Assembly (NCBI GenBank): GCA_018883425.1
Contig: VFQY01000011.1
Span: 1 to 41,790 of the forward strand
DNA length: 41,790 nucleotides
Reading direction: 5' to 3'
Source: Candidatus Omnitrophota bacterium
GTDB lineage: Bacteria > Omnitrophota > Omnitrophia > Omnitrophales > Aquincolibacteriaceae
How positions within the stretch are numbered: the stretch's first letter is position 1; each line of letters starts with the position of its first letter. The position numbers were made by a program, and so were the translations under genes. Shown here piece by piece: positions 2,234 to 37,701 of this stretch. The notes under the pieces are model-generated. The model saw nothing but the letters and a program-made list of their open reading frames with translations, was not told the DNA's origin and searched no databases.

Positions 2234-3607
2234 TTAAAGATCCTGATAACGCATGACCCGGTTTCTTCCCTCTTCTTTCGCACGATAGAGAGCTTGATCA
2301 GCCTTGCCGATCAAATCGTTGGACAGAACCGAGAGATCTGAAGCCGCGATTTTTTCAGAGCTGTAATCCGAGGGGAAAACCGCAACTCCGATGGATGCGG
2401 TCACCTTCGTACTCACATCATAAACTTTGAAGACATGTCTTGCGATACTCGAGCGAATTCTCTCTGCGACGTCAAGGGCGCCCGCAGAATTCGTTTCCGG
2501 CAACGCCATGATGAATTCTTCACCCCCGAAACGTCCCACAAGATCTACTTTGCGGAGACTGGAACGCAGAATTGCAGCGGTTTCGCGCAGCGTAGCGTCT
2601 CCCACCAGGTGACCGAGTTCGTCATTATATCTTTTGAAGTGGTCGATGTCTAACATTAATAATGCCAACGAGAAGCCGTGTTTTTGACTCCGGCGAAGTT
2701 CATCCATGAAAAGTGTCATAAAATGCCGCCGCACGAAAACTTTGGACAGATCGTCAATGATGGAGAGCGAACGGACGGTGTCATAGAGCTTGATTTTCTT
2801 GATCTGAAGAACGAGATGAGCGGCAAGCACTTCGAACTTCGCCAAATCCGACCCTTGAGCGCCCTCCACGAATAAATAAGCCAGACGCTCCTGCTGAATC
2901 GTTAAGGGAAAAATCCACTGAGATTCCCCCGCCTGAACGTTTTTTTCCTGCATAACAAACTTGATGTGCTTGCGTTCAATTTCGCTAAGAACCCGGTTGG
3001 TTTCACGGCATGAATTTTCGTCAATCGATAGAACATGAAACGTTCCGTCTTCATTCCCGCCTGCATCCTGAAAAAGCGCAAGGTCCATGGACGCGAAGGG
3101 CAGTTCCGGCAGGACTTTTTTCTGGAGAGCATCGGCGAGGGAAGCGTAGCTGAGGCATTCGCTGAAGTCTCTGGCGATTTCGAACAAGTCCATGAGGCTG
3201 GATGCCTGTTTCTCGAGGTGCTGAAGATTGTCAAGCCGATGCTGATGCTTGTGCTTGAGAACCTCCCATTCCCGGAGGATATCTTTGTTGACCAGGCTCT
3301 CTTCCTCGAAGCGCTTTTCCCACTCATGACGGTACGCCATGAACGCGGCGAGAAGCCCTGCGTGCATCAGCAGAAAAAGAACCATCTCGGGATGAAAATC
3401 TCCGGCGATGTAAAAAAACTGGAAGCCGGCAAAAGAGAAGGCTGTAAAGGCCAAAAGACGGCGATTATTTTCAGCACAAAAGTAGTAGAGAGGCAAGGCC
3501 AGCAGCATCGAGAAAACGTAATACGCCAGCTCAAGATCGCGTGTTTTGAAGTACACGACAGGCATCATCAGCAGAAAAACGCCCAGGATCAGATTGCGCT
3601 GGAGCAT
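2234..3607 (-). CDS. Membrane-anchored diguanylate cyclase (GGEEF, I-site present)
   Basis: Predicted to make cyclic di-GMP from two GTP. Residues 1-95 hold about four hydrophobic membrane segments. A coiled-coil stretch rich in E, K and H follows (about 95-140), then a GAF-like region (about 140-270), then the GGDEF domain to the C-terminus. The signature is GGEEF, with metal-binding Asp in MLDIDHFKRYND. RKVD sits exactly five residues before GGEEF, matching the RxxD inhibitory site, so product inhibition is expected. The usual DxLTGLxNRR reads DDLSKVFVRR here, a mild deviation. The start at 3607 overlaps the end of the upstream cyclase gene by 19 bases, so translation is probably coupled. 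What the GAF-like region senses cannot be told. Confidence 0.9.
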   Translation of the reverse strand: MLQRNLILGVFLLMMPVVYFKTRDLELAYYVFSMLLALPLYYFCAENNRRLLAFTAFSFAGFQFFYIAGDFHPEMVLFLLMHAGLLAAFMAYRHEWEKRFEEESLVNKDILREWEVLKHKHQHRLDNLQHLEKQASSLMDLFEIARDFSECLSYASLADALQKKVLPELPFASMDLALFQDAGGNEDGTFHVLSIDENSCRETNRVLSEIERKHIKFVMQEKNVQAGESQWIFPLTIQQERLAYLFVEGAQGSDLAKFEVLAAHLVLQIKKIKLYDTVRSLSIIDDLSKVFVRRHFMTLFMDELRRSQKHGFSLALLMLDIDHFKRYNDELGHLVGDATLRETAAILRSSLRKVDLVGRFGGEEFIMALPETNSAGALDVAERIRSSIARHVFKVYDVSTKVTASIGVAVFPSDYSSEKIAASDLSVLSNDLIGKADQALYRAKEEGRNRVMRYQDL

Positions 3608-7201: not shown

Positions 7202-8656
7202 ATGGACCAGCGCCTTTACCAGCAGCAGAGTCAGAAGCTCGTGCTCTCGCCCCAGATCCGGCAGTATCTGAAGCTTTTGCAGCTTCCGCTCACAGAGCTT
7301 TCCCAGGCCATAGAAACTGAACTCGTTGAAAATCCCCTGCTCGAGGAAAAATCGACCGACGAGAGCGATATCACAGACAGCATGCGTTCTCAAGAGCCTT
7401 CCGAGCAGGACACTCCCAAACCGGCCACTGAAGAACTCAGGCCGGGTGAGAGTTTTGAGGATCTGCCTCAGTGGCTCGCGGATTCCGAGGGGTATTCTCA
7501 TTACTCCGAAGGGCGCCACGAAGACATCGACGAGCTGCAGAAGAACAAAGATTATTCCGAAGGACTGCTGACTAAACCTGAAGCGCTATCGGATTACTTG
7601 CTTTGGCAAATCCGTTTTTTGGATCTCTCGGAGGCACAGAGGACGGCCGCCGAAGAGATTATCGGCAATATTGACGAGAACGGATTTCTTCAGGCGAATC
7701 TCGATGAAATCGCTTCAGCGGTGCACGCCGAGCCCGGCGAAGTGCTCGCCGTTCTCCACAAGATCCAGGGCCTGGAGCCGCCCGGCATCGGTGCCCGAAC
7801 GCTCCAAGAAGCTCTGCTCCTGCAGATTGAGCGGAAGAAATCTCCTGAGGCGCCTGTAGCTCGGGAAATTGTCGAAAAACACCTCCCCTTGCTTGAGAAA
7901 AGGGATTGGCCGCAGCTGGCGCGCCTGATCGGCTGTGATCTGGAAAAAATCCGCAAGTCAGCGGATTTGATCGCGCGGCTCGAGCTCCGCCCCGGCCGAA
8001 GCTTTTATGCCGAAGAGACGATTGCCGTGACCCCCGATGCGATTGTCACCCTGCAGGAAGACGAGACGCCCCGGCTCAAGGTTGAAATCGTTAATGAAAA
8101 AATTCCCGAGCTTCGCATCAACGCTTATTACCGAAGCATGCTGCGCAAGAAGGATCTTGATGAAAAAACGAAAGTTTTCCTGAAAGAGAAACTGCAGGCC
8201 GCAATCGACTTTATGAAAGCACTGCAGCAGCGCAAAAGCACGCTGCACGGGATCACCGATGAACTCGTCAAAGAACAGGGCGAGTTTTTCGAAAAAGGAT
8301 TCTCGCATTTGAGGCCGCTGCGTCTGAAAGATATCGCCGGCAATCTTGGCATCCATGAATCTACCGTGAGCCGCGCAATCAGCGGCAAACATATGCAAAC
8401 GCCTCAGGGAACGATTCCCTACCGGAGTTTTTTTTCGACCAAACTCGAAACCACGACCGGAGAGGAAGAATCGCAAAAGAGCATCATGATGAAGCTGAAA
8501 AGTCTCATCGAGGCTGAGAGTCCTGAGAAGCCGCTCAGCGATCAGGAGCTCGTTGTCAAACTGAAGGCGGAAGGAATTGTCATTGCCCGGAGAACTGTGG
8601 CGAAATACCGTGATCTCCTTAAGATCTTACCCTCGCATCTCAGAAGAAAACGTTAA
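7202..8656 (+). CDS. rpoN: RNA polymerase sigma-54 factor
   Basis: Sigma-54 directs RNA polymerase to -24/-12 promoters and needs AAA+ activators. Residues 1-50 are the glutamine-rich activator-interaction region (DQRLYQQQSQKLVLSPQIRQ, LPLTELSQAIETELVENPLLEE). An acidic linker spans about 55-120, followed by the core-binding domain. The DNA-binding HTH is near residues 375-400 (IAGNLGIHESTVSRAISGK). The C-terminal RpoN box reads ARRTVAKYR (462-470). At 484 aa it is full length. It is the only long plus-strand gene in the first 34 kb apart from the Nudix gene 17 bases after it. The canonical lptB/hpf/ptsN neighbours are absent. Confidence 0.97.
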   Translation: MDQRLYQQQSQKLVLSPQIRQYLKLLQLPLTELSQAIETELVENPLLEEKSTDESDITDSMRSQEPSEQDTPKPATEELRPGESFEDLPQWLADSEGYSHYSEGRHEDIDELQKNKDYSEGLLTKPEALSDYLLWQIRFLDLSEAQRTAAEEIIGNIDENGFLQANLDEIASAVHAEPGEVLAVLHKIQGLEPPGIGARTLQEALLLQIERKKSPEAPVAREIVEKHLPLLEKRDWPQLARLIGCDLEKIRKSADLIARLELRPGRSFYAEETIAVTPDAIVTLQEDETPRLKVEIVNEKIPELRINAYYRSMLRKKDLDEKTKVFLKEKLQAAIDFMKALQQRKSTLHGITDELVKEQGEFFEKGFSHLRPLRLKDIAGNLGIHESTVSRAISGKHMQTPQGTIPYRSFFSTKLETTTGEEESQKSIMMKLKSLIEAESPEKPLSDQELVVKLKAEGIVIARRTVAKYRDLLKILPSHLRRKR

Positions 8657-11500: not shown

Positions 11501-12656
11501 GGGATTCTATCCTTTCTTTCATACGTCCGGCTGTCTCTGCGGGATTTTTTGCGTCGAAAAGAGCGCGCACTGCGGCGATGCGCCTTGCGCCTGCCTTGAG
11601 AACCTGATCCAAATTGGACTCGTTGATCCCCCCGATGGCGACGAAAGGTTTCGTGATTTCACGCGACGCCATGCTGACTAATGCCAAACCCGCTGGGATG
11701 TAATGAGGCTTTGTCGGTGTTTCGTAAACGGGCCCGACGCCGATGTAATCAACGTCCTCTAGAACTGCGGCTCGTGCTTGTTTTTCGGAGTGAGTGGATT
11801 TTCCAAGGTAAAGGCGCTTTCCGCTTTTGCTCATGAGCGAGCGCGCTGCGTCCACGGGGAGATCGTCTTGACCGAGGTGGACGCCATGCGCACCGGAGGC
11901 TAAGGCGAGATCGACCCTGTCGTTGATAAAAAAAAGTTTTCTGTGACTCTCTGCGAGAGCGGTCATGCGGCAGGCCGTCTGATAGAGAAGTCCGTCTGAG
12001 CAATGCTTTGAACGAAGCTGGATAATATCCACTCCTGCCCGGTAAAGAGCGTCCGATTTTTTTAGGAAGTCGCGGGCGCTCTGCGCATCGCGCAGATCCG
12101 AAACCGCGTAGAGTTTAAAGTTTTGAAATACGACTGAGCGCCAGTCGCTCATCTGCGTGTTTGTCTTGATCCCCGATTCGGGATGCGCCAGAATTTTTTC
12201 GATAACGCCGGTTGTCGAGCGGCCTTTGAGAAAGCTGATGCGCCGGACCTTGCCGCCCCAGGATAGAACTTCGCTTGCCCCCACAATGTCGCCGGTTTTC
12301 CAATCTGCGCCTTTGACAAGTGTATTGGGCCGGATGCTTCGGATGAGCTTGATCGGAGTCGGTTCAGAAAACAGAATGACGTGATCCACGCATGAAAGAG
12401 CTGTCAGAAGCCTCGCTCGGTCCTGCTGGGAATTGACGGGGCGATGCGGCCCTTTGTAGGCACGCACTGAGGCGTCTGTGTTCACGCCGAGAATGAGCAC
12501 GTCTCCGAGCGCCCTCGCCTTTTCTAAATATTGAACGTGTCCGGCATGAAGAATATCAAACGCGCCGTTCGTGAAAACAATGCGCCTTTTCCTGCGCCGG
12601 TGAAAATTCAAGGCGTTTTGCAGAGTGCCTGGAGTTAGAAGCTTGCGCGGACTCAT
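11490..12656 (-). CDS. Fusion: RfaE2-type nucleotidyltransferase + thiamine-phosphate synthase (ThiE)
   Basis: A single 388-residue frame. Residues 1-160 are a cytidylyltransferase-fold adenylyltransferase of the RfaE2/HldE-C type: FTNGAFDILHAGHVQYLEKA with the HxGH motif at 37-40, ILGVNTDASVRAYKGPHRPV, and LVKGADW. This activity makes ADP-heptose for LPS. Residues about 181-388 match ThiE, which joins HMP-PP and thiazole phosphate to thiamine phosphate: YAVSDLRDA, IIQLRSK, FFINDRVDLALASGAHGVHLGQ, YIGVGPVYETPTKPHY and VAIGGINESNLDQVLKAGA. An internal ATG at 12149 has no Shine-Dalgarno, so a fused product is expected. The start overlaps gmhA by four bases (ATGA). gmhA and RfaE2 belong to one pathway; thiamine synthesis does not. 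Confidence 0.9.
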   Translation of the reverse strand: MSPRKLLTPGTLQNALNFHRRRKRRIVFTNGAFDILHAGHVQYLEKARALGDVLILGVNTDASVRAYKGPHRPVNSQQDRARLLTALSCVDHVILFSEPTPIKLIRSIRPNTLVKGADWKTGDIVGASEVLSWGGKVRRISFLKGRSTTGVIEKILAHPESGIKTNTQMSDWRSVVFQNFKLYAVSDLRDAQSARDFLKKSDALYRAGVDIIQLRSKHCSDGLLYQTACRMTALAESHRKLFFINDRVDLALASGAHGVHLGQDDLPVDAARSLMSKSGKRLYLGKSTHSEKQARAAVLEDVDYIGVGPVYETPTKPHYIPAGLALVSMASREITKPFVAIGGINESNLDQVLKAGARRIAAVRALFDAKNPAETAGRMKERIESHEA

Positions 12657-13228
12657 GCGGAAAAAAGCTGATTTTCCACGACCTCGGAAACAGCATGCAG
12701 CGCTGTGATGTGGACTTCTTGAATGTGGGGCGTTTTCTTCGTTTGAGCTCGAAAGGTCATCCGGCAGAGCCCGGCAAGCGCACCGCCGCTCTCTCCCGTG
12801 AAGCCAATCACGGTCAGACCCTGCGCGGCGGCAGTCTTCGCGGCCTCAATCACATTCTTGGAATTGCCGCTTGTGGACAGCCCGATCAGGATGTCTCCCG
12901 GGTTTCCGAGGCCCTCGATTTGCCTCGAGAAAACGCGTTCGAAGCAGTAGTCGTTGGCGATCGCCGTCAAAATCGATGTGTCCGTCGTCAGTGCGATTGC
13001 AGGAAGACTTTTACGCTCGAGTTTGAAGCGGGCTATGAACTCCGCCGCAATGTGCTGTGAATCGGCGGCGCTGCCCCCGTTACCGCAGAGAAGCAGCTTG
13101 CCGCCGTTCTTGAAGCAATGAATGATCGCTGCCGAGATATGCTCGAGAATCTCCAGCTGACCCTCAGAAAAACTTTTCTCGAAGGCTTCGCGGTGATCCT
13201 GAAGAATGGGAAGAAAGTGATCCTTCAC
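12653..13228 (-). CDS. gmhA: Sedoheptulose 7-phosphate isomerase GmhA
   Basis: Converts sedoheptulose 7-phosphate to D-glycero-D-manno-heptose 7-phosphate, first step of ADP-heptose synthesis for LPS. SIS-domain motifs are clear: LLLCGNGGSAADSQHIAAEF, ALTTDTSILTAIANDY, FSRQIEGLGNPGDILIGLSTSGNS and the late HITALHAVSEVVE. The open frame extends to 13312 inside pfkA, but the extra residues are a shadow of pfkA. A GTG at 13228, five bases after the pfkA stop, gives 191 aa, normal for GmhA; no strong Shine-Dalgarno is visible, so coupling to pfkA is likely. The next step, an RfaE2 domain, is encoded immediately downstream. Confidence 0.93.
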   Translation of the reverse strand: MKDHFLPILQDHREAFEKSFSEGQLEILEHISAAIIHCFKNGGKLLLCGNGGSAADSQHIAAEFIARFKLERKSLPAIALTTDTSILTAIANDYCFERVFSRQIEGLGNPGDILIGLSTSGNSKNVIEAAKTAAAQGLTVIGFTGESGGALAGLCRMTFRAQTKKTPHIQEVHITALHAVSEVVENQLFSA

Positions 13229-18881: not shown

Positions 18882-19610
18882 TTAGAGTTTAGCCTCGCCG
18901 AGAAATTCGATGGCCAGCCCTAACTGCTTCTTTCTCATTTCTTTACGGTTTACTCTTCCCTGAAGACTGTACTCCTGCTGGAAATTCGCGGAGGAAAAAA
19001 TGTGAATCTCGACAAGGAGTCCCTCCACCGCAAGCGCATCGATCTGATTTGCGACCCGAAGATCCAGGTATTCCGTGAAGATACCGCCCTCGCTGATATT
19101 CGTCGTAATCGCCCTCGATGCGAGAACGTCGCCATTCTTGAGTTTGATCATCAGCTCGACGGGAATGGCGACATGCATGCGTTTGCTGCGGCGCCGCTCC
19201 ACCTGAAGGCCGATGGAATCCTCGGGTCTGACGTCCACCTCGAATTCTTTCTCTTTATCTTTTTCCAGGAGAAAGGGGCCGAAATCTTCAGCGACCTCTT
19301 TCTCTGATTCGCAGACCCGTACATTCTTAGGAACGTAGGTTTCCCGCAGACTATTACGAATCCCCTCGGAGGCACCGAAAATTAGACTTTTCTGCGGTCT
19401 TATGCAGGCCGCCATGAGCTTTCTCATTCCCAAGGCATCGACGTCGGCCATTCCCTGAACATTGAGGATGACGCGCTGCAGCCGATGCCGGCGAATATTT
19501 CGCTGAATCTTGTCTGCAACATCCTCTACTGAATCCTGAGTCGGTATTCCTTCCAAATCGAACACGCAAACACTTCCAATTTCTCGAGTCGAGACTTTGA
19601 GTTTGCTCAT
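18882..19610 (-). CDS. STAS-PilZ protein, probable c-di-GMP effector
   Basis: Residues 1-110 form a STAS (anti-sigma-antagonist-like) domain: VCVFDLEGIPTQDSVEDVADKI, ILNVQGMADVDALGMRKLM. Where SpoIIAA-type domains carry a phosphorylated Ser in DSSG-like sequence, this one has DALG, so phospho-control by that residue is lost. From about residue 135 there is a PilZ domain with RRSKR (RxxxR) and NISEGG (N-x-S-x-x-G), the two c-di-GMP contact motifs. It may therefore read out c-di-GMP made by the two GGEEF proteins. The frame is open to a TTG at 19706. The ATG at 19610 is preferred because STAS homology starts there, though its nearest AAGGAGG lies 28 bases upstream across a small CGGGA-GAAA-TCCCG hairpin. 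Confidence 0.85.
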   Translation of the reverse strand: MSKLKVSTREIGSVCVFDLEGIPTQDSVEDVADKIQRNIRRHRLQRVILNVQGMADVDALGMRKLMAACIRPQKSLIFGASEGIRNSLRETYVPKNVRVCESEKEVAEDFGPFLLEKDKEKEFEVDVRPEDSIGLQVERRRSKRMHVAIPVELMIKLKNGDVLASRAITTNISEGGIFTEYLDLRVANQIDALAVEGLLVEIHIFSSANFQQEYSLQGRVNRKEMRKKQLGLAIEFLGEAKL

Positions 19611-19782
19611 GATGGGTTTCGCCGGGATTTCTCCCGCGCCTCCTTCGTTATTTTCACAATAATCGCGGCAGAGTTTTGATTCAGGTTTCTTCTCTACTTG
19701 AGTCAAAGGTAGCTTAGAAAAACACTTATTTCAAATCTTTAAGAAAAAAAACTGCTCAATAGAAAGCAATTACTATCAGGAT

Positions 19783-32804: not shown

Positions 32805-33515
32805 CTATTTCGATTCCAGAGTTTGAAGACACTCTTCTGCCGTTCGGAAAAGCATCGTGAAAGTGGATCCGCACCCCACGAAACTCGAGGCTGAGACCGA
32901 ACCTTCGTTGCGCCGCACCAGCCCCTTAACGAGGCAAAGGCCCAGACCGTTGCCCGATTCTTCCCCTCTTGTCGAAAAGAATGGATCGAAAAGAGCGTTC
33001 AAATGCTTGACGGGCACGCCCGGCCCCGTATCGGACACACTCAAGACAGCCATGGGCATATCCTCGCGTCCCCATTGAAGGCTTGCCCTGAGAATCAGTT
33101 TTCCGCCGCCCTTCATGGCTTGCAAGGCATTTTCCGCAAGTGCGTAAAATGCGGCTTGAAGATCCGGCGCCGCACACCGAACCCGGGGAAAATCGGGGGG
33201 CACATGCTCGATGACCTCGATAGGATCAAGACCGTGATGTACCTTCAATCTTCTGACCGCTTGCCTCCAGCACTCGCGGACATGTGCGGTGCTGCCCGCA
33301 TCGCCCGAATCATCGCAAACTCGCATCAGGCCGCCGATCTTTCGCGTAATCTCGATAGCTCGGTTCGCGAAATCGTAAATTTTCTTCAGGCTGTAGCGGG
33401 CATCAGCCAGAGCCTCATCATCGCCGCAAAAACATCCTTCACGGCTCTTGTCTAGATGAAGTTCGACCCTGAGTTTAATAGCGTAGAGAATGTTCACGAC
33501 GTTATGCTGAAGCAT
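32805..33515 (-). CDS. Small histidine kinase with intact ATPase domain and altered H-box
   Basis: A 236-residue soluble kinase-like protein with no sensor domain. The start MLQHNVVNILYAIKLRVELHL resembles a dimerisation helix, but the residue after the His is Asn rather than Glu/Asp (HNVVN). The ATPase domain is complete: N-box ALAENALQAM, G1 DTGPGVP, F-box FDPFFSTRG, G2 GNGLGLCLVKGLV. Its start overlaps the unknown 166-residue gene by 14 bases. No stop lies close upstream in its frame, yet no other start codon is available, so the short N-terminus looks genuine. It may use another protein's His, such as that of the degenerate kinase at 36217-37701. Confidence 0.85.
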   Translation of the reverse strand: MLQHNVVNILYAIKLRVELHLDKSREGCFCGDDEALADARYSLKKIYDFANRAIEITRKIGGLMRVCDDSGDAGSTAHVRECWRQAVRRLKVHHGLDPIEVIEHVPPDFPRVRCAAPDLQAAFYALAENALQAMKGGGKLILRASLQWGREDMPMAVLSVSDTGPGVPVKHLNALFDPFFSTRGEESGNGLGLCLVKGLVRRNEGSVSASSFVGCGSTFTMLFRTAEECLQTLESK

Positions 33516-34002
33516 GTCTGGTTTCCGGCGCCTCCTTTTCTTTCGAATTGGAATCCGCGATCTGAGCCTTGAAGATTGACGGGGTTCTTTTTGAATCCAG
33601 CGCGAGCTGCTCGAAAACCGAAGGACATCGCAGACCGACGCCCCGGTACACTCTCATTTGCATCTTGAACGCGGCAGAGATCCGCCCATAGGTCCGTGAT
33701 TCGGGATACCTTTCGAAGTAACGCTTGAGCCAGGTCAAGGCGCGGTCAGCCTCGCGGCTCCTGTCTTCCGCTCGGAAAAAATGGTTCTTTATGTCTTCCA
33801 GAAACGAGAGCTGGCGGATGCGGACCTCCCGCCAATCCCTGCCCGTGCCTTTTCTAGGGTGAAACAGAAGCATCATGACCATCATTTTATTGTTAAACCA
33901 CCCCTCAAGAAGGGATCTTGATTCCTGCAGAGTTAATTCCTGCCAGCCCCCTTTTTCGCCTTCTGCTTGGTCATCGAGTCCCTGATTCGTATCGAGCGTC
34001 AT
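33502..34002 (-). CDS. Unrecognised 166-residue protein in the signalling locus
   Basis: No family recognised. The protein is soluble, charged and probably helical. The N-terminus is acidic (MTLDTNQGLDDQAEGEKGG). The middle has MMVMMLLFHPRKG and WREVRIRQLSFLEDIKNHFF, then WLKRYFERYPESRTYGRIS, which looks like a helical repeat piece. The C-terminus is polar. It overlaps the small kinase gene, so the two are probably made together, and it faces the HTH-cupin regulator across a 171-base divergent region. It could be the sensory or dimerisation partner of that kinase. Confidence 0.7.
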   Translation of the reverse strand: MTLDTNQGLDDQAEGEKGGWQELTLQESRSLLEGWFNNKMMVMMLLFHPRKGTGRDWREVRIRQLSFLEDIKNHFFRAEDRSREADRALTWLKRYFERYPESRTYGRISAAFKMQMRVYRGVGLRCPSVFEQLALDSKRTPSIFKAQIADSNSKEKEAPETRHASA

Positions 34003-34046
34003 ACCTTGGGAGATACCCTAACGACACGAGACGATCAAGGGAAGCT

Positions 34047-34071
34047 GTTAAGATTATTCATGGTTAAGATT
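34047..34071. repeat. Direct repeat GTTAAGATT x2 upstream of the regulator promoter
   Basis: GTTAAGATT at 34047-34055 and 34063-34071, a period of 16 bases, directly before the -35 box of the HTH-cupin gene and within the divergent region. It could be a tandem binding site for a response regulator; no protein is assigned. Confidence 0.5.
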
Positions 34072-34079
34072 TCGTGCGT

Positions 34080-34108
34080 TTGACTAAGTCCAAAAGGGCT
34101 CTTATCCT
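34080..34108 (+). promoter_or_regulatory. Sigma-70-type promoter for the HTH-cupin regulator
   Basis: TTGACT (34080-34085) and TATCCT (34103-34108) with a 17-base spacer. Transcription would start near 34115, leaving a leader of about 59 AT-rich bases before the ATG at 34174. Confidence 0.6.
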
Positions 34109-34131
34109 TTATGTTAGGCTTAATTAATTTA

Positions 34132-34150
34132 AAGTTAGTTTAAATAACTT
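34132..34150. promoter_or_regulatory. Operator-like inverted repeat before the HTH-cupin gene
   Basis: AAGTTA (34132-34137) and TAACTT (34145-34150) form a six-base inverted repeat with a seven-base spacer, next to a TTAATTAA palindrome. It lies just downstream of the expected transcription start, a usual place for an autorepressor to bind. Confidence 0.5.
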
Positions 34151-34173
34151 AACGGGAAGGAACTCAAAACGCC

Positions 34174-34815
34174 ATGTATGACGACTTCGGTAAAGACCTT
34201 CGCGATCAGTTCAAAGGCTCGGAGCGCGTCAAGACTGCACGCTGGGACCTCGCCATAAAATCCCTCCTGAACGAAAAATCGGACTTGCCGGGTGAGCCTC
34301 TTCCAGTCAGCTGGCTTGCGAAGAGAACGAAGTTGAGCGTGCCGTATTTATCGAATGTTCTCTCCGGCAAAATTAAAGACCCGCCCTCGGAAAAGCTGAT
34401 CAAGATAGCCGAAGCCTTCTCAATCTCGTACCCCGAGCTTGCGAGCCGTGCCATGAATGAATTCGAGGGTACCTTCTTCAAAACCGGGTTCGGTCAGCGA
34501 GGGCTCATCGATTACAGCCAGCACGGATTCGTGCTCCAGTCGCTCAGCCCCCCAGGGGCGGGCGGGCGCGACTTTTTTCTGGGAATCATGACGATAAGAC
34601 CGCTGCAGGAATTGAAGAGATGGAAGTTTCAAACGTCAGCGATGATCGCTGTGTATGTCCAGCAAGGCACTCTTGATATTTCCTTCGGCTCAAAAAGGCA
34701 CCGGTTACTCGCTAACGAATCGGCTTATTTCGACGGAAGCGTTCCGCATCGATTCAAAAACGCGGATACACTGGAAGCCAAAATTTTCATCGCAACGAGA
34801 CCGCCTCTGCACTAG
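34174..34815 (+). CDS. XRE-family HTH regulator with C-terminal cupin
   Basis: A 213-residue one-component regulator. Residues about 45-95 are an XRE HTH: PVSWLAKRTKLSVPYLSNVLSGKIKDP in pieces, then SEKLIKIAEAFSISYPEL. Residues about 130-210 are a cupin (MIAVYVQQGTLDISFGSKRHRL, ESAYFDGSVPHRFKN), which usually binds a small ligand. The metal-binding pattern is reduced: SVPHRF keeps one His. It is the only plus-strand gene after 9.4 kb, divergent from the 166-residue gene and kinase, with an operator-like repeat before it. It could be the transcriptional output of a locus whose receivers have no DNA-binding domains. Ligand unknown. Confidence 0.88.
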   Translation: MYDDFGKDLRDQFKGSERVKTARWDLAIKSLLNEKSDLPGEPLPVSWLAKRTKLSVPYLSNVLSGKIKDPPSEKLIKIAEAFSISYPELASRAMNEFEGTFFKTGFGQRGLIDYSQHGFVLQSLSPPGAGGRDFFLGIMTIRPLQELKRWKFQTSAMIAVYVQQGTLDISFGSKRHRLLANESAYFDGSVPHRFKNADTLEAKIFIATRPPLH

Positions 34816-34933
34816 CTTGGAAAAGGGCCGCGAACTTCATCGGGCCAGCCGGGAGTTATCCGAAGTCCTTGCGGCCTTAAGAAAAAGCGGCGTCGGCAGC
34901 GGCCTCCGGAGGGGCGCCTGCTCCCATCGAGGT

Positions 34934-35731
34934 TTAAACTTTCACACGGGTGAGTCCATGCTCGAGACACTTCGTTCGAAGAATTTCCAGGACGCTCTCG
35001 ATTCGGAAGGGTTTGGTGAACAAAATGAACCCGCGGCTTTCGATATCCTCAACAATCGCTTGATACCCATCAGCTGAAAGCGCAACATAAACCTTAGGCT
35101 GATGGCCGGCTCGGGACTGAATTGCTGAAACCATTTCAAGTCCGCTCATGTGGGGCATTTTGATGTCAAAAAAAAGGATATCCGGTTTGAATTGCTCGTT
35201 CATGATCAAGCCCTGCTGCCCATCCCCCGCGATCTCGACATCATAGTCGCTCATCGAATCCTCGAGAAGCCAGTCCTTCAGCGCTTCACAAATTTCAGGT
35301 TCATCATCGACAATCAGAATTTTTGCCCGCGTTAGGCAGCCCGTTTCGGGCGGCTGCGCGTTCACGGCACTCCCGCACGCCGACAAGACGCTTCGGGTGA
35401 AGAAGGCCTCGTCTAGAGGTTTCTCGATGATCTTGTCGAGACGGGCATGCTGATAGCGCTCCTGATACCGTTCGTAAAAGCCGGTCACGACGATGACTTT
35501 GATGTGAGGCTGCTTTTTCCTCACTTCTTCCAGAACCTGAAAACCATCGAGCTTGGGCATATGCAGATCCAGTACAAGCAGGTCATAGGCGTAACTGCGC
35601 GACAGATCAACAGCGCGCTGAGGATCCGTAGCCTCAAGCACAAGGTACTGCAGCCTTTCCTTCAGAAGATCTTTGATGACGGCGACAATACCCGGGTCAT
35701 CATCAATGACGAGTGCTATTTTTTGCGGCAT
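34934..35731 (-). CDS. Tandem receiver (REC-REC) protein without output domain
   Basis: 265 aa. REC1 (about 3-120) has VIDDDPG, phospho-acceptor Asp in LLVLDLHMPKLDG, VIVVTGF and the switch Lys in IIEKPL. REC2 (about 135-255) has ILIVDDEPE, acceptor Asp in ILFFDIKMPHMSG, YVALSADGY and FTKPF. All key residues are intact in both. There is no DNA-binding or enzymatic domain, so it is likely a phosphorelay shuttle or acts by protein contact. The ATG at 35731 has GGAGG eight bases upstream; the gene overlaps the single-receiver gene by 29 bases. It ends facing the HTH-cupin gene. Confidence 0.9.
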   Translation of the reverse strand: MPQKIALVIDDDPGIVAVIKDLLKERLQYLVLEATDPQRAVDLSRSYAYDLLVLDLHMPKLDGFQVLEEVRKKQPHIKVIVVTGFYERYQERYQHARLDKIIEKPLDEAFFTRSVLSACGSAVNAQPPETGCLTRAKILIVDDEPEICEALKDWLLEDSMSDYDVEIAGDGQQGLIMNEQFKPDILFFDIKMPHMSGLEMVSAIQSRAGHQPKVYVALSADGYQAIVEDIESRGFILFTKPFRIESVLEILRTKCLEHGLTRVKV

Positions 35732-36119
35732 GGCGATCGCCTCCCTCGCTTACTTTTAAGAGTTCCCGCACCAGGCGGGCTAGTTGACCCGATGAAACGG
35801 GTTTTTCCAACAGTGCATCGGTCCCCCAAGGGGGCGATTGTTTTAGATGATCCTCGAGAAATCCGGAAAGCAGAACGGTTTTTACAGCGGGATCCATACT
35901 GCGGATTCGGCGGATAAAATCTGTGCCCTTTTCTTCTGTTCCGAGTTCGAGATCGACAAAGACAATGTGGGGACGATTCTGAAGGAAGAGGTCAAAACCT
36001 TGACTAGCGCTGAGAGCGCTTGAGAATCGAAATTCGAATCCGGGCATGGCTTGCGCAAGTATGTCGGCAAAACACTCGCAGATCCCCCGTTCGTCGTCGA
36101 TCAAGAGCACGCTGACCAA
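35703..36119 (-). CDS. Single-domain response regulator
   Basis: 138 aa, one receiver domain: VLLIDDERGICE, acceptor Asp in HIVFVDLELG, TVLLSGF, and Lys in LLEKPVSSG. The tail after residue 120 is polar with no output domain. The start is a TTG with GGGGAGG four bases upstream. It lies 97 bases after the degenerate kinase gene and overlaps the tandem-receiver gene, so the three are probably co-transcribed. Confidence 0.88.
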   Translation of the reverse strand: MVSVLLIDDERGICECFADILAQAMPGFEFRFSSALSASQGFDLFLQNRPHIVFVDLELGTEEKGTDFIRRIRSMDPAVKTVLLSGFLEDHLKQSPPWGTDALLEKPVSSGQLARLVRELLKVSEGGDRHAAKNSTRH

Positions 36120-36216
36120 ACAGCCTCCCCGTCAACCGTCGAATTCAATCTTAAATCAACTATAGCTTCCGAATTCTCGGGCGTCCAAATTCGCGCTATT
36201 TTTTTGATGAACAGGT

Positions 36217-37701
36217 TTACAACGGCGGGACTTCGTCTTGCGCCGCACAAGGCAGACGCAGAACGCATCGAAAGTCGGCCGGAGCGGCCGGAAAACGCTC
36301 ATAAAGAAAAGAACCCTCAAGAGCACTTTCAATAACATTCCTAACATCGGCGATTTCTGAGGGCTCCGGCGACATGAACTCAAGCGAGGATGTGTTGACG
36401 GCCGCTGAGGACTGGCGACTCGGAGGCTGCTCGCCCTGCAGGGAGGTGCATGCGAACTCAACCGTCACCGAGCCTAGTCGCTCCGGGCAAACTTTTGCAG
36501 TTAAAGAAATCCTGCGGGCAGAGTTTTCTGGGTGCACGGCAGCAGCGGCTTTGAATAATGATGCAAAAACCCCCTGGAGATCGTGACTCACGCCCCGCAG
36601 CAGAGGCAAATCACACGAGATGCCTTTCAAACAAAGTTCGGGCTGAGTCAGCGTATTTTCAAACCCCTGAAAACGGAACTCCTCCCATGCGCAGGTAATG
36701 ATCAATTTCAGCTGAACAGGCTTTTTCTCCCCTGTTCTTGATTTCACGAGATCCCGCAAGGTGTCGGTGATACCTCGGATGCGCACAGCGCCGGATGCGG
36801 CCATGAGCAGCTTGCGCCGTATGCCCAGAAACTTTTCCTCGCCGGCTTTCAGAGCATCCCTTCTTGCGGCCCCATCGGTCTCCATCTGTTTTGTGAACAG
36901 TTCCTCCAAAGAGTGAAGAGCCATTTGAACGTTCGGCAAAACGAGCGTCAGCGGATTAGTGATCTCATGAGCTATCGCGCGCCCGATCCCAGAGAGAAGT
37001 TCTCGAGGTTTTTCTTTCTGATACCGCTCGAGCCTCGCCTCCGTCTCATGAAGCCTGTCGATCAGACGTTCCTTTTCCGCGAAAATTTTTTCATGTTCTT
37101 GACCGGAGGATTCGATCTCGGCCTTCACTCCCCCTGCCTCGATGGCCCGAGAAACCAAAGCGGCCAAGCGAAGAGCGTCGGCCGCACAATCGGCGCGATC
37201 GGCAGCAGACCATCTTCGGCTCTGGCCCTCAGCACCCAACAGAACGACGGACGTTACACCTTTGTTGATAGGGCTGTGACGGCACGCAGGATCTTCCTGG
37301 CGGCTGGCAATCAGCGCCGTAAAGCCCGCTTGAATCAGCTCAGCGAGGAGAACCCCAAGCCCCTTGTCCCGCAGGCTGGAGTGCGAGCCCGGCAAACCCG
37401 GATTCAGGGACAGGAAATCACCGGGTTCGTTGCGGCTGCAGAGACTCTCCAGTAACGCGAACGGCAGCTTTGCAGGAGGGATGCGCCGAGGCGATGTTCT
37501 TGAAAATGATCCCGCGAGAAGAAAGTCATCTCCGCCCTGCCCGGCCGGCCGATAATACGCGGCGCTTCTCACTCCCCGGCTCAAGGCCAGTTCAAGAAGG
37601 CCGCGCGTGACGGTTCTGCGGAAATCCTTGGATAACAGGAGTTTTGCGGTGGGAAATCGCTGAGAAGGGCTGGGATTGAAGAATAATTTCGGTAATCTCA
37701 A
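36217..37701 (-). CDS. Histidine-kinase-like protein with intact H-box but decayed ATPase domain
   Basis: 494 aa, soluble. Residues 1-185 resemble a sensory GAF-like domain with weak similarity. A coiled coil spans about 190-230 (EHEKIFAEKERLIDRLHETEARL in part). The dimerisation domain has a good H-box, GRAIAHEITNPLTLVLPNVQ. The C-terminal part keeps only the outline of an ATPase domain: the N-box Asn is lost (SLFKAAAAV), the G1 box is replaced by FACTSLQGE, and no G2 GxGxG exists. The frame is uninterrupted and codon use looks ordinary, so this is a pseudokinase rather than a pseudogene. The start is a TTG with GAAAGG six bases upstream. It heads the receiver genes. Confidence 0.82.
   Translation of the reverse strand: MRLPKLFFNPSPSQRFPTAKLLLSKDFRRTVTRGLLELALSRGVRSAAYYRPAGQGGDDFLLAGSFSRTSPRRIPPAKLPFALLESLCSRNEPGDFLSLNPGLPGSHSSLRDKGLGVLLAELIQAGFTALIASRQEDPACRHSPINKGVTSVVLLGAEGQSRRWSAADRADCAADALRLAALVSRAIEAGGVKAEIESSGQEHEKIFAEKERLIDRLHETEARLERYQKEKPRELLSGIGRAIAHEITNPLTLVLPNVQMALHSLEELFTKQMETDGAARRDALKAGEEKFLGIRRKLLMAASGAVRIRGITDTLRDLVKSRTGEKKPVQLKLIITCAWEEFRFQGFENTLTQPELCLKGISCDLPLLRGVSHDLQGVFASLFKAAAAVHPENSARRISLTAKVCPERLGSVTVEFACTSLQGEQPPSRQSSAAVNTSSLEFMSPEPSEIADVRNVIESALEGSFLYERFPAAPADFRCVLRLPCAAQDEVPPL

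Follow-up and report, generated by a model that had tools for sequence, protein, structure and literature searches.

The signalling locus and its genes

The stretch of DNA analysed here (the window, 41,790 nucleotides) belongs to a 2.18-Mb, 156-contig Omnitrophota genome. Flanked by housekeeping genes, which read as miaB- and lipA-like from their open reading frames, lies a signalling locus in which all the open reading frames of the first-pass annotation were recovered in place:

36217–37701, minus strand: HK494, a homologue of histidine kinases that is ATP-dead, made up of a GAF-like N-terminus, a coiled coil, DHp and a degenerate CA domain
36736–37014, minus strand: DHp helices of HK494, residues 230–322 (His245 codon at 36967–36969; Glu246, Asn249)
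36220–36606, minus strand: degenerate CA domain of HK494, residues 366–494 (N-box Asn changed to Lys, G1 and G2 motifs absent)
35703–36119, minus strand: REC138, a single-domain receiver
34934–35731, minus strand: REC265, a tandem receiver with no output domain
34174–34815, plus strand: HTH-cupin regulator, convergent with REC265
34080–34108, plus strand: putative promoter of the HTH-cupin gene, TTGACT-N17-TATCCT, read by eye
33502–34002, minus strand: P166, an orphan order-specific protein, predicted to be a helical bundle
32805–33515, minus strand: HK236, a sensorless kinase-like protein with an H4-N5-x-x-N8 box and an intact CA domain (His codon at 33504–33506)

On the minus strand the order of transcription is HK494, REC138, REC265 and then P166 and HK236, REC265 and P166 being separated by the plus-strand HTH-cupin gene. 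The presence of this regulator had been seen correctly but its layout needs correction: the gene faces that of the tandem receiver with its 3′ end (tail-to-tail) and that of P166 with its 5′ end (head-to-head), and this arrangement is conserved. HK494 and HK236, with the convergent gene between them, form separate transcription units. The start ATG of HK236 at 33515 is preceded by AAAGGAGG and overlaps the 3′ end of the P166 gene. Elsewhere the window encodes a GGDEF protein (2234–3607), sigma-54 (7202–8656) and a PilZ protein (18882–19706).

REC138 contains one PF00072 domain and REC265 two, and, as described earlier, all of them keep their Asp (VDLEL, LDLHM, FDIKM) and Lys (EKP, EKP, TKP) motifs and have no output domains. 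In the plus-strand gene both HTH_3 and Cupin_2 exceed the Pfam cut-offs. No part of the module is better conserved than its product, the HTH-cupin protein, which is 74% identical to its counterpart in the closest matching module, that of Candidatus Omnitrophus fodinae (G038). Since the layout is conserved even though tail-to-tail neighbours share no promoter, a functional link between this regulator and REC265 is suggested, and, judging from gene neighbourhood only, the HTH-cupin protein is the probable output partner of the output-less tandem receiver. The promoter-like TTGACT-N17-TATCCT element is conserved between the intergenic region of the window (34003–34173) and the matching ones of L088 and L091, and its spacing is identical in G038. 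Some relatives have an inverted repeat, TTAGTCAAA/TTTGACTAA, around the −35 element ahead of the HTH-cupin gene, a possible autoregulatory operator. Many modules have a longer HTH-cupin form of about 425–460 residues (L095 4961–6328, L097 8637–9995, L100, L109–L111, L115, L116, L121 and L198–L201); the one that was scanned, from L095, contains two HTH and two cupin parts.

Conservation of the module

The locus represents one instance of a multi-protein phospho-signalling module that belongs to a single Omnitrophota order. Separate searches from P166, HK236 and REC265 converge on the same neighbourhoods, made up of a 7TM-GAF kinase, a single receiver, a tandem receiver, a convergent HTH-cupin gene, a divergent P166 gene and sometimes HK236. 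When only REC265 was used for the search, a convergent HTH-cupin gene was found within ~850 bases in 19 of the 26 assessable places. The HTH-cupin protein occurs in 29 and P166 in 24 of 285 genomes of the phylum, all within the order, so a module extending beyond the order was rejected, and all 21 named loci with an HTH-cupin relative belong to Omnitrophota.

P166 had been called unrecognised, and indeed no known domain was found in it by comparison with Pfam, NCBIfam or PDB sequences, but it forms a conserved order-specific family with invariant N38, F67, H74, L92 and A111. Its predicted model is a helical bundle, for which Foldseek returned nothing significant, only middling helical-bundle matches; one of these, amid bundles of unrelated proteins, is a weak match to AHP1 (Z 5.8, rmsd 5.1 over 92). 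Despite the invariant H74 the HPt sequence motif is not seen, and on these comparisons the assignment of P166 to HPt proteins is doubtful, as is its assignment to any known domain.

The two kinase homologues

The first-pass annotation described HK494 as a protein with a sound H-box (HEITNPL, residue 245) and a dead ATPase domain, and both parts of the description hold. Aligned with its relatives, the phospho-acceptor box reads H245-E246-I-T-N249-P-L, in agreement with the DHp pattern H-E/D-x-x-N/T, while the N-box Asn is Lys and G1 and G2 are missing, so that the ATP-binding boxes of HisKA kinases are not in place. Although a Pfam scan gave no match, HK494 shares 40% identity with the G038 kinase over residues 209–418 (E 1.8e-34) and, on this alignment, is a true histidine-kinase homologue related to the complete kinases of the order. 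Its predicted model has a Bergerat-like fold at residues 324–487 (Z ~14–15 to many kinases, rmsd ~3; among the matches listed, the CA domain of NtrB gave Z 15.6 and rmsd 2.5 over 128 residues). The 50 structure matches listed for HK494 include neither ChpT nor Spo0B, which speaks neither for nor against a likeness to them. HK494 thus combines an acceptor histidine in a DHp hairpin with a Bergerat-like domain that is ATP-incompetent, the motifs being absent and the fold being seen in the model. The 7TM region that Pfam detects in the relatives is missing, with a gap of only ~140 bases to the upstream gene, and the N-terminus is GAF-like according to a mid-confidence model (mean pLDDT 68.6) and homology.

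A frameshift or assembly break concealing the CA domain was rejected: the reading frame is open, the codon usage of the CA remnant is coding-like, and the other two frames are full of stops and hold no hidden CA domain or CA similarity. All 16 relatives compared have an intact CA domain and therefore the dead kinase is particular to the window genome. In several relatives of the same family the main kinase has H-Q (AHQ[IV]NNRF) instead of H-E, with the CA domain intact (L093 9614–11818, L102 8839–11046, L104 3021–5219, L112 4103–6301, L106 8017–9657, L113 8660–10876); within the same module, this loss of the acidic residue is a second one and of a different kind. At L101 (8201–10454) the main kinase is split into overlapping open reading frames of 562 and 228 residues, probably through a frameshift or an error in sequencing. 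The gene immediately upstream of the L093 main kinase (11831–12862) encodes a methyltransferase with weak CheR similarity, and genes of similar size occupy this place at other loci.

Is HK494 then a gene in decay? In relative-rate tests of the window branch versus the G038 branch, with G041 as outgroup, the CA domain shows 42 changes against 3 (p 6e-9) and the DHp with linker 24 against 16 (p 0.21), p-values that are indicative, since G041 and G027 served as single outgroups and the CA remnant aligns poorly in its middle region. The window branch as a whole evolves somewhat faster (28/12, 25/16, 21/9 and 28/14 changes, window/G038, in the other module genes); the DHp is in line with these genes or below them, and the GAF-like part of HK494 is faster (28 against 13). 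Identity between HK494 and the G038 kinase in the DHp (43/38%) equals that among intact relatives (43/40%), and in the CA domain it is 17% compared to 51%. These comparisons indicate an acceptor helix under normal constraint next to a CA domain whose constraint has collapsed, which makes a working phosphotransfer protein likelier than a decaying gene, as far as can be judged from the single genome that supplies the constraint evidence for a dead kinase. Conservation of the DHp could, however, be explained by phosphatase activity or dimerisation alone, which counts against a role in a relay.

HK236 has a complete ATPase domain, as had been reported (HATPase_c PF02518, 2.6e-16; N, G1, F and G2 boxes present). 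Its H-box is indeed the non-standard HN box, but its reading as a damaged, altered box does not stand, because the trait is family-wide. In the 15 close homologues, which come from 13 genomes of the order including that of the window, H4-N5 is invariant and all the ATP-binding boxes are present; the phospho-acceptor His is thus followed by Asn rather than an acidic residue in every one of them, and the residue at +4 from the His is N in 5, T in 1 and S in 9. More distant Omnitrophota kinases that match HK236 have the box H-E-x-x-N-P, so the replacement of E by N, now fixed in the family, is probably derived. Since the stand-alone length and the box are conserved at 15 loci, HK236 was rejected as a broken piece of a full kinase. 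In four HisKA kinases, replacing the acidic residue after the His kills the autokinase and spares the phosphatase activity, which needs T or N at +4 (PMC3510030). By analogy with these mutants HK236 probably charges its own His only poorly; it may act as a phosphatase, and a role as donor in trans is less likely. In G041 a receiver-GGDEF-EAL protein is encoded directly downstream of HK236 (L089 13793–15505), with cyclic-di-GMP as a possible output.

Proposed phosphate flow and known systems

The reading that we rank first, although we hold it only tentatively and give it somewhat less than an even chance, is by analogy to known relays: HK494 would have turned into a phosphotransferase (or phosphatase) between receivers, similar to Spo0B, ChpT or PhyT, with the HTH-cupin protein as output. 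In most relatives an ATP-competent 7TM-GAF kinase stands beside the single and tandem receivers; in the window genome this main kinase has lost the membrane sensor and the ATP-binding motifs and kept a constrained and chemically complete H-E-x-x-N acceptor helix. Phosphate would enter a receiver, probably REC138, from HK236 (if active) or from other kinases of the genome; His245 of HK494 would take it over from there and hand it to REC265, which would then control the HTH-cupin regulator, and HK494 could also drain phosphate. The direction of flow, the choice of partners and the output are those that we infer. HK236 need not be the only donor, since intact kinases with neighbouring receivers are present elsewhere in the window genome.

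The original interpretation was of two complementary half-kinases defining the system. Its elements hold (an ATP-dead protein with a sound His, an ATPase with a defective H-box, output-less receivers), but the complementary halves as the definition of the system do not, and pairing as a general rule fails the check on co-occurrence. Across modules the two ‘half-kinases’ assort INDEPENDENTLY: HK236 adjoins an ATP-competent main kinase in G041, G033 and G014 and one with an intact CA domain and an HQ box in G016, has no main kinase beside it in the modules of G028 and G013, and is missing from many modules. HK494 and HK236 are therefore not an obligate split kinase. It is still chemically possible, on the sequences, that in the window genome HK236 phosphorylates His245 in trans before the receivers take over, as CheA4 does with CheA3, since HK494 offers the His and the acidic base and HK236 all the ATP boxes, with Asn for the base; the constrained DHp next to an unconstrained CA domain would fit, and the halves of EnvZ are likewise active on separate chains (PMC3591291). 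HK494 does lack a working catalytic domain as one partner of a split kinase should, but the other partner would be expected to lack the acceptor His, whereas HK236, unlike CheA4, retains its own invariant H4. With the irregular co-occurrence and the separate transcription units also against it, we consider this reading unlikely. Still less probable is an order-wide version of it, in which HK236 would be a sensorless ‘free catalytic subunit’ whose own His is no longer charged and which acts on the DHp of the module's main kinase in trans; if so, the main kinase could have shed its own ATPase here with function kept.

Similarly unlikely is a scheme of phosphatases only, with HK236 as the dedicated receiver phosphatase (or kinase-poor regulator) of the order, HK494 as a phosphatase or sink, and other kinases charging the receivers. 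The mutants agree with it in that, once the acidic residue is gone, autokinase activity disappears and phosphatase activity stays (PMC3510030), HK236 has HN in 15/15 homologues and one of N, T and S at the +4 position, and the genome does have other intact kinases with adjoining receivers; however, the Ser found in 9/15 is outside the tested phosphatase residues, and HK494 retains a Glu that a pure phosphatase could do without. Least likely, in our estimate, is that HK494 is decaying or a mere scaffold, a pseudokinase like DivL or ChrS that no longer handles phosphate. The loss of the CA function and the 7TM region and the faster GAF-like part (28 vs 13) point that way, but the DHp evolves at a normal rate with H-E-x-x-N intact, the CA remnant has no stops and coding-like codon usage, and the remaining module genes are all intact. 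DivL is without a phospho-acceptor His, unlike HK494.

The locus offers a comparison of before and after made by nature: the main kinase of the module is ATP-competent in the relatives, and in the window genome it is ATP-dead with its acceptor helix constrained. This makes the conversion of a histidine kinase into a phosphotransferase, and the supply of the catalytic domain by another protein, testable. The fixed His-Asn box of a sensorless family and the output-less tandem receivers linked to an HTH-cupin regulator are further test cases in an uncultured phylum. The parts and the principle are already known. No literature on Omnitrophota two-component modules was found, the main paper on the phylum (PMC10066038) being silent on them, and, as far as the literature searched goes, there is no earlier account of the order-specific module, of a kinase family with a fixed HN box, of the orphan P166 family or of a module whose kinase is disabled.

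Among solved structures the top sequence match of HK236, across DHp and CA, is to CckA-type HisKA kinases (PDB 5idj, 5idm), from which it differs by having no sensor, no receiver and Asn instead of the acidic residue after the His. In CheA3/CheA4 of Rhodobacter sphaeroides, as here, one protein has the His without an ATPase and the other the ATPase, but the His domain is missing from CheA4 (PMC3591291), whereas the His of HK236 is retained, and HK494 and HK236 do not regularly co-occur. DivL and ChrS are, like HK494, histidine-kinase homologues without autokinase activity that modulate partners (PMC9430884, PMC9491836); the ChrS variant arose by a frameshift in laboratory evolution, unlike HK494 (PMC9491836). 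Spo0B and ChpT share with HK494 a DHp and a Bergerat-like domain that does not bind ATP, but they are established families with demonstrated transfer (PMC3433190), and HK494 differs in its extra GAF-like N-terminus and recent origin from an ATP-competent kinase family. A matching cast is that of the Pak-SdrG-PhyT-PhyR relay, with a kinase, a single receiver, an ATP-dead DHp protein, a second receiver and a regulator (PMC5898713). PhyT (PhyP) of Sphingomonas melonis is a documented phosphotransferase that, like HK494, is kinase-derived, with a sound His, a degenerate ATPase and an adjacent regulator, and the phosphate that it takes from a single-domain receiver is passed to another regulator; it is, however, a membrane-bound HWE/HisKA_2 protein with HRxxN and a sigma-factor output (PMC5898713), whereas HK494 is HisKA-type with HExxN, has no membrane part and likely acts towards an HTH-cupin output.
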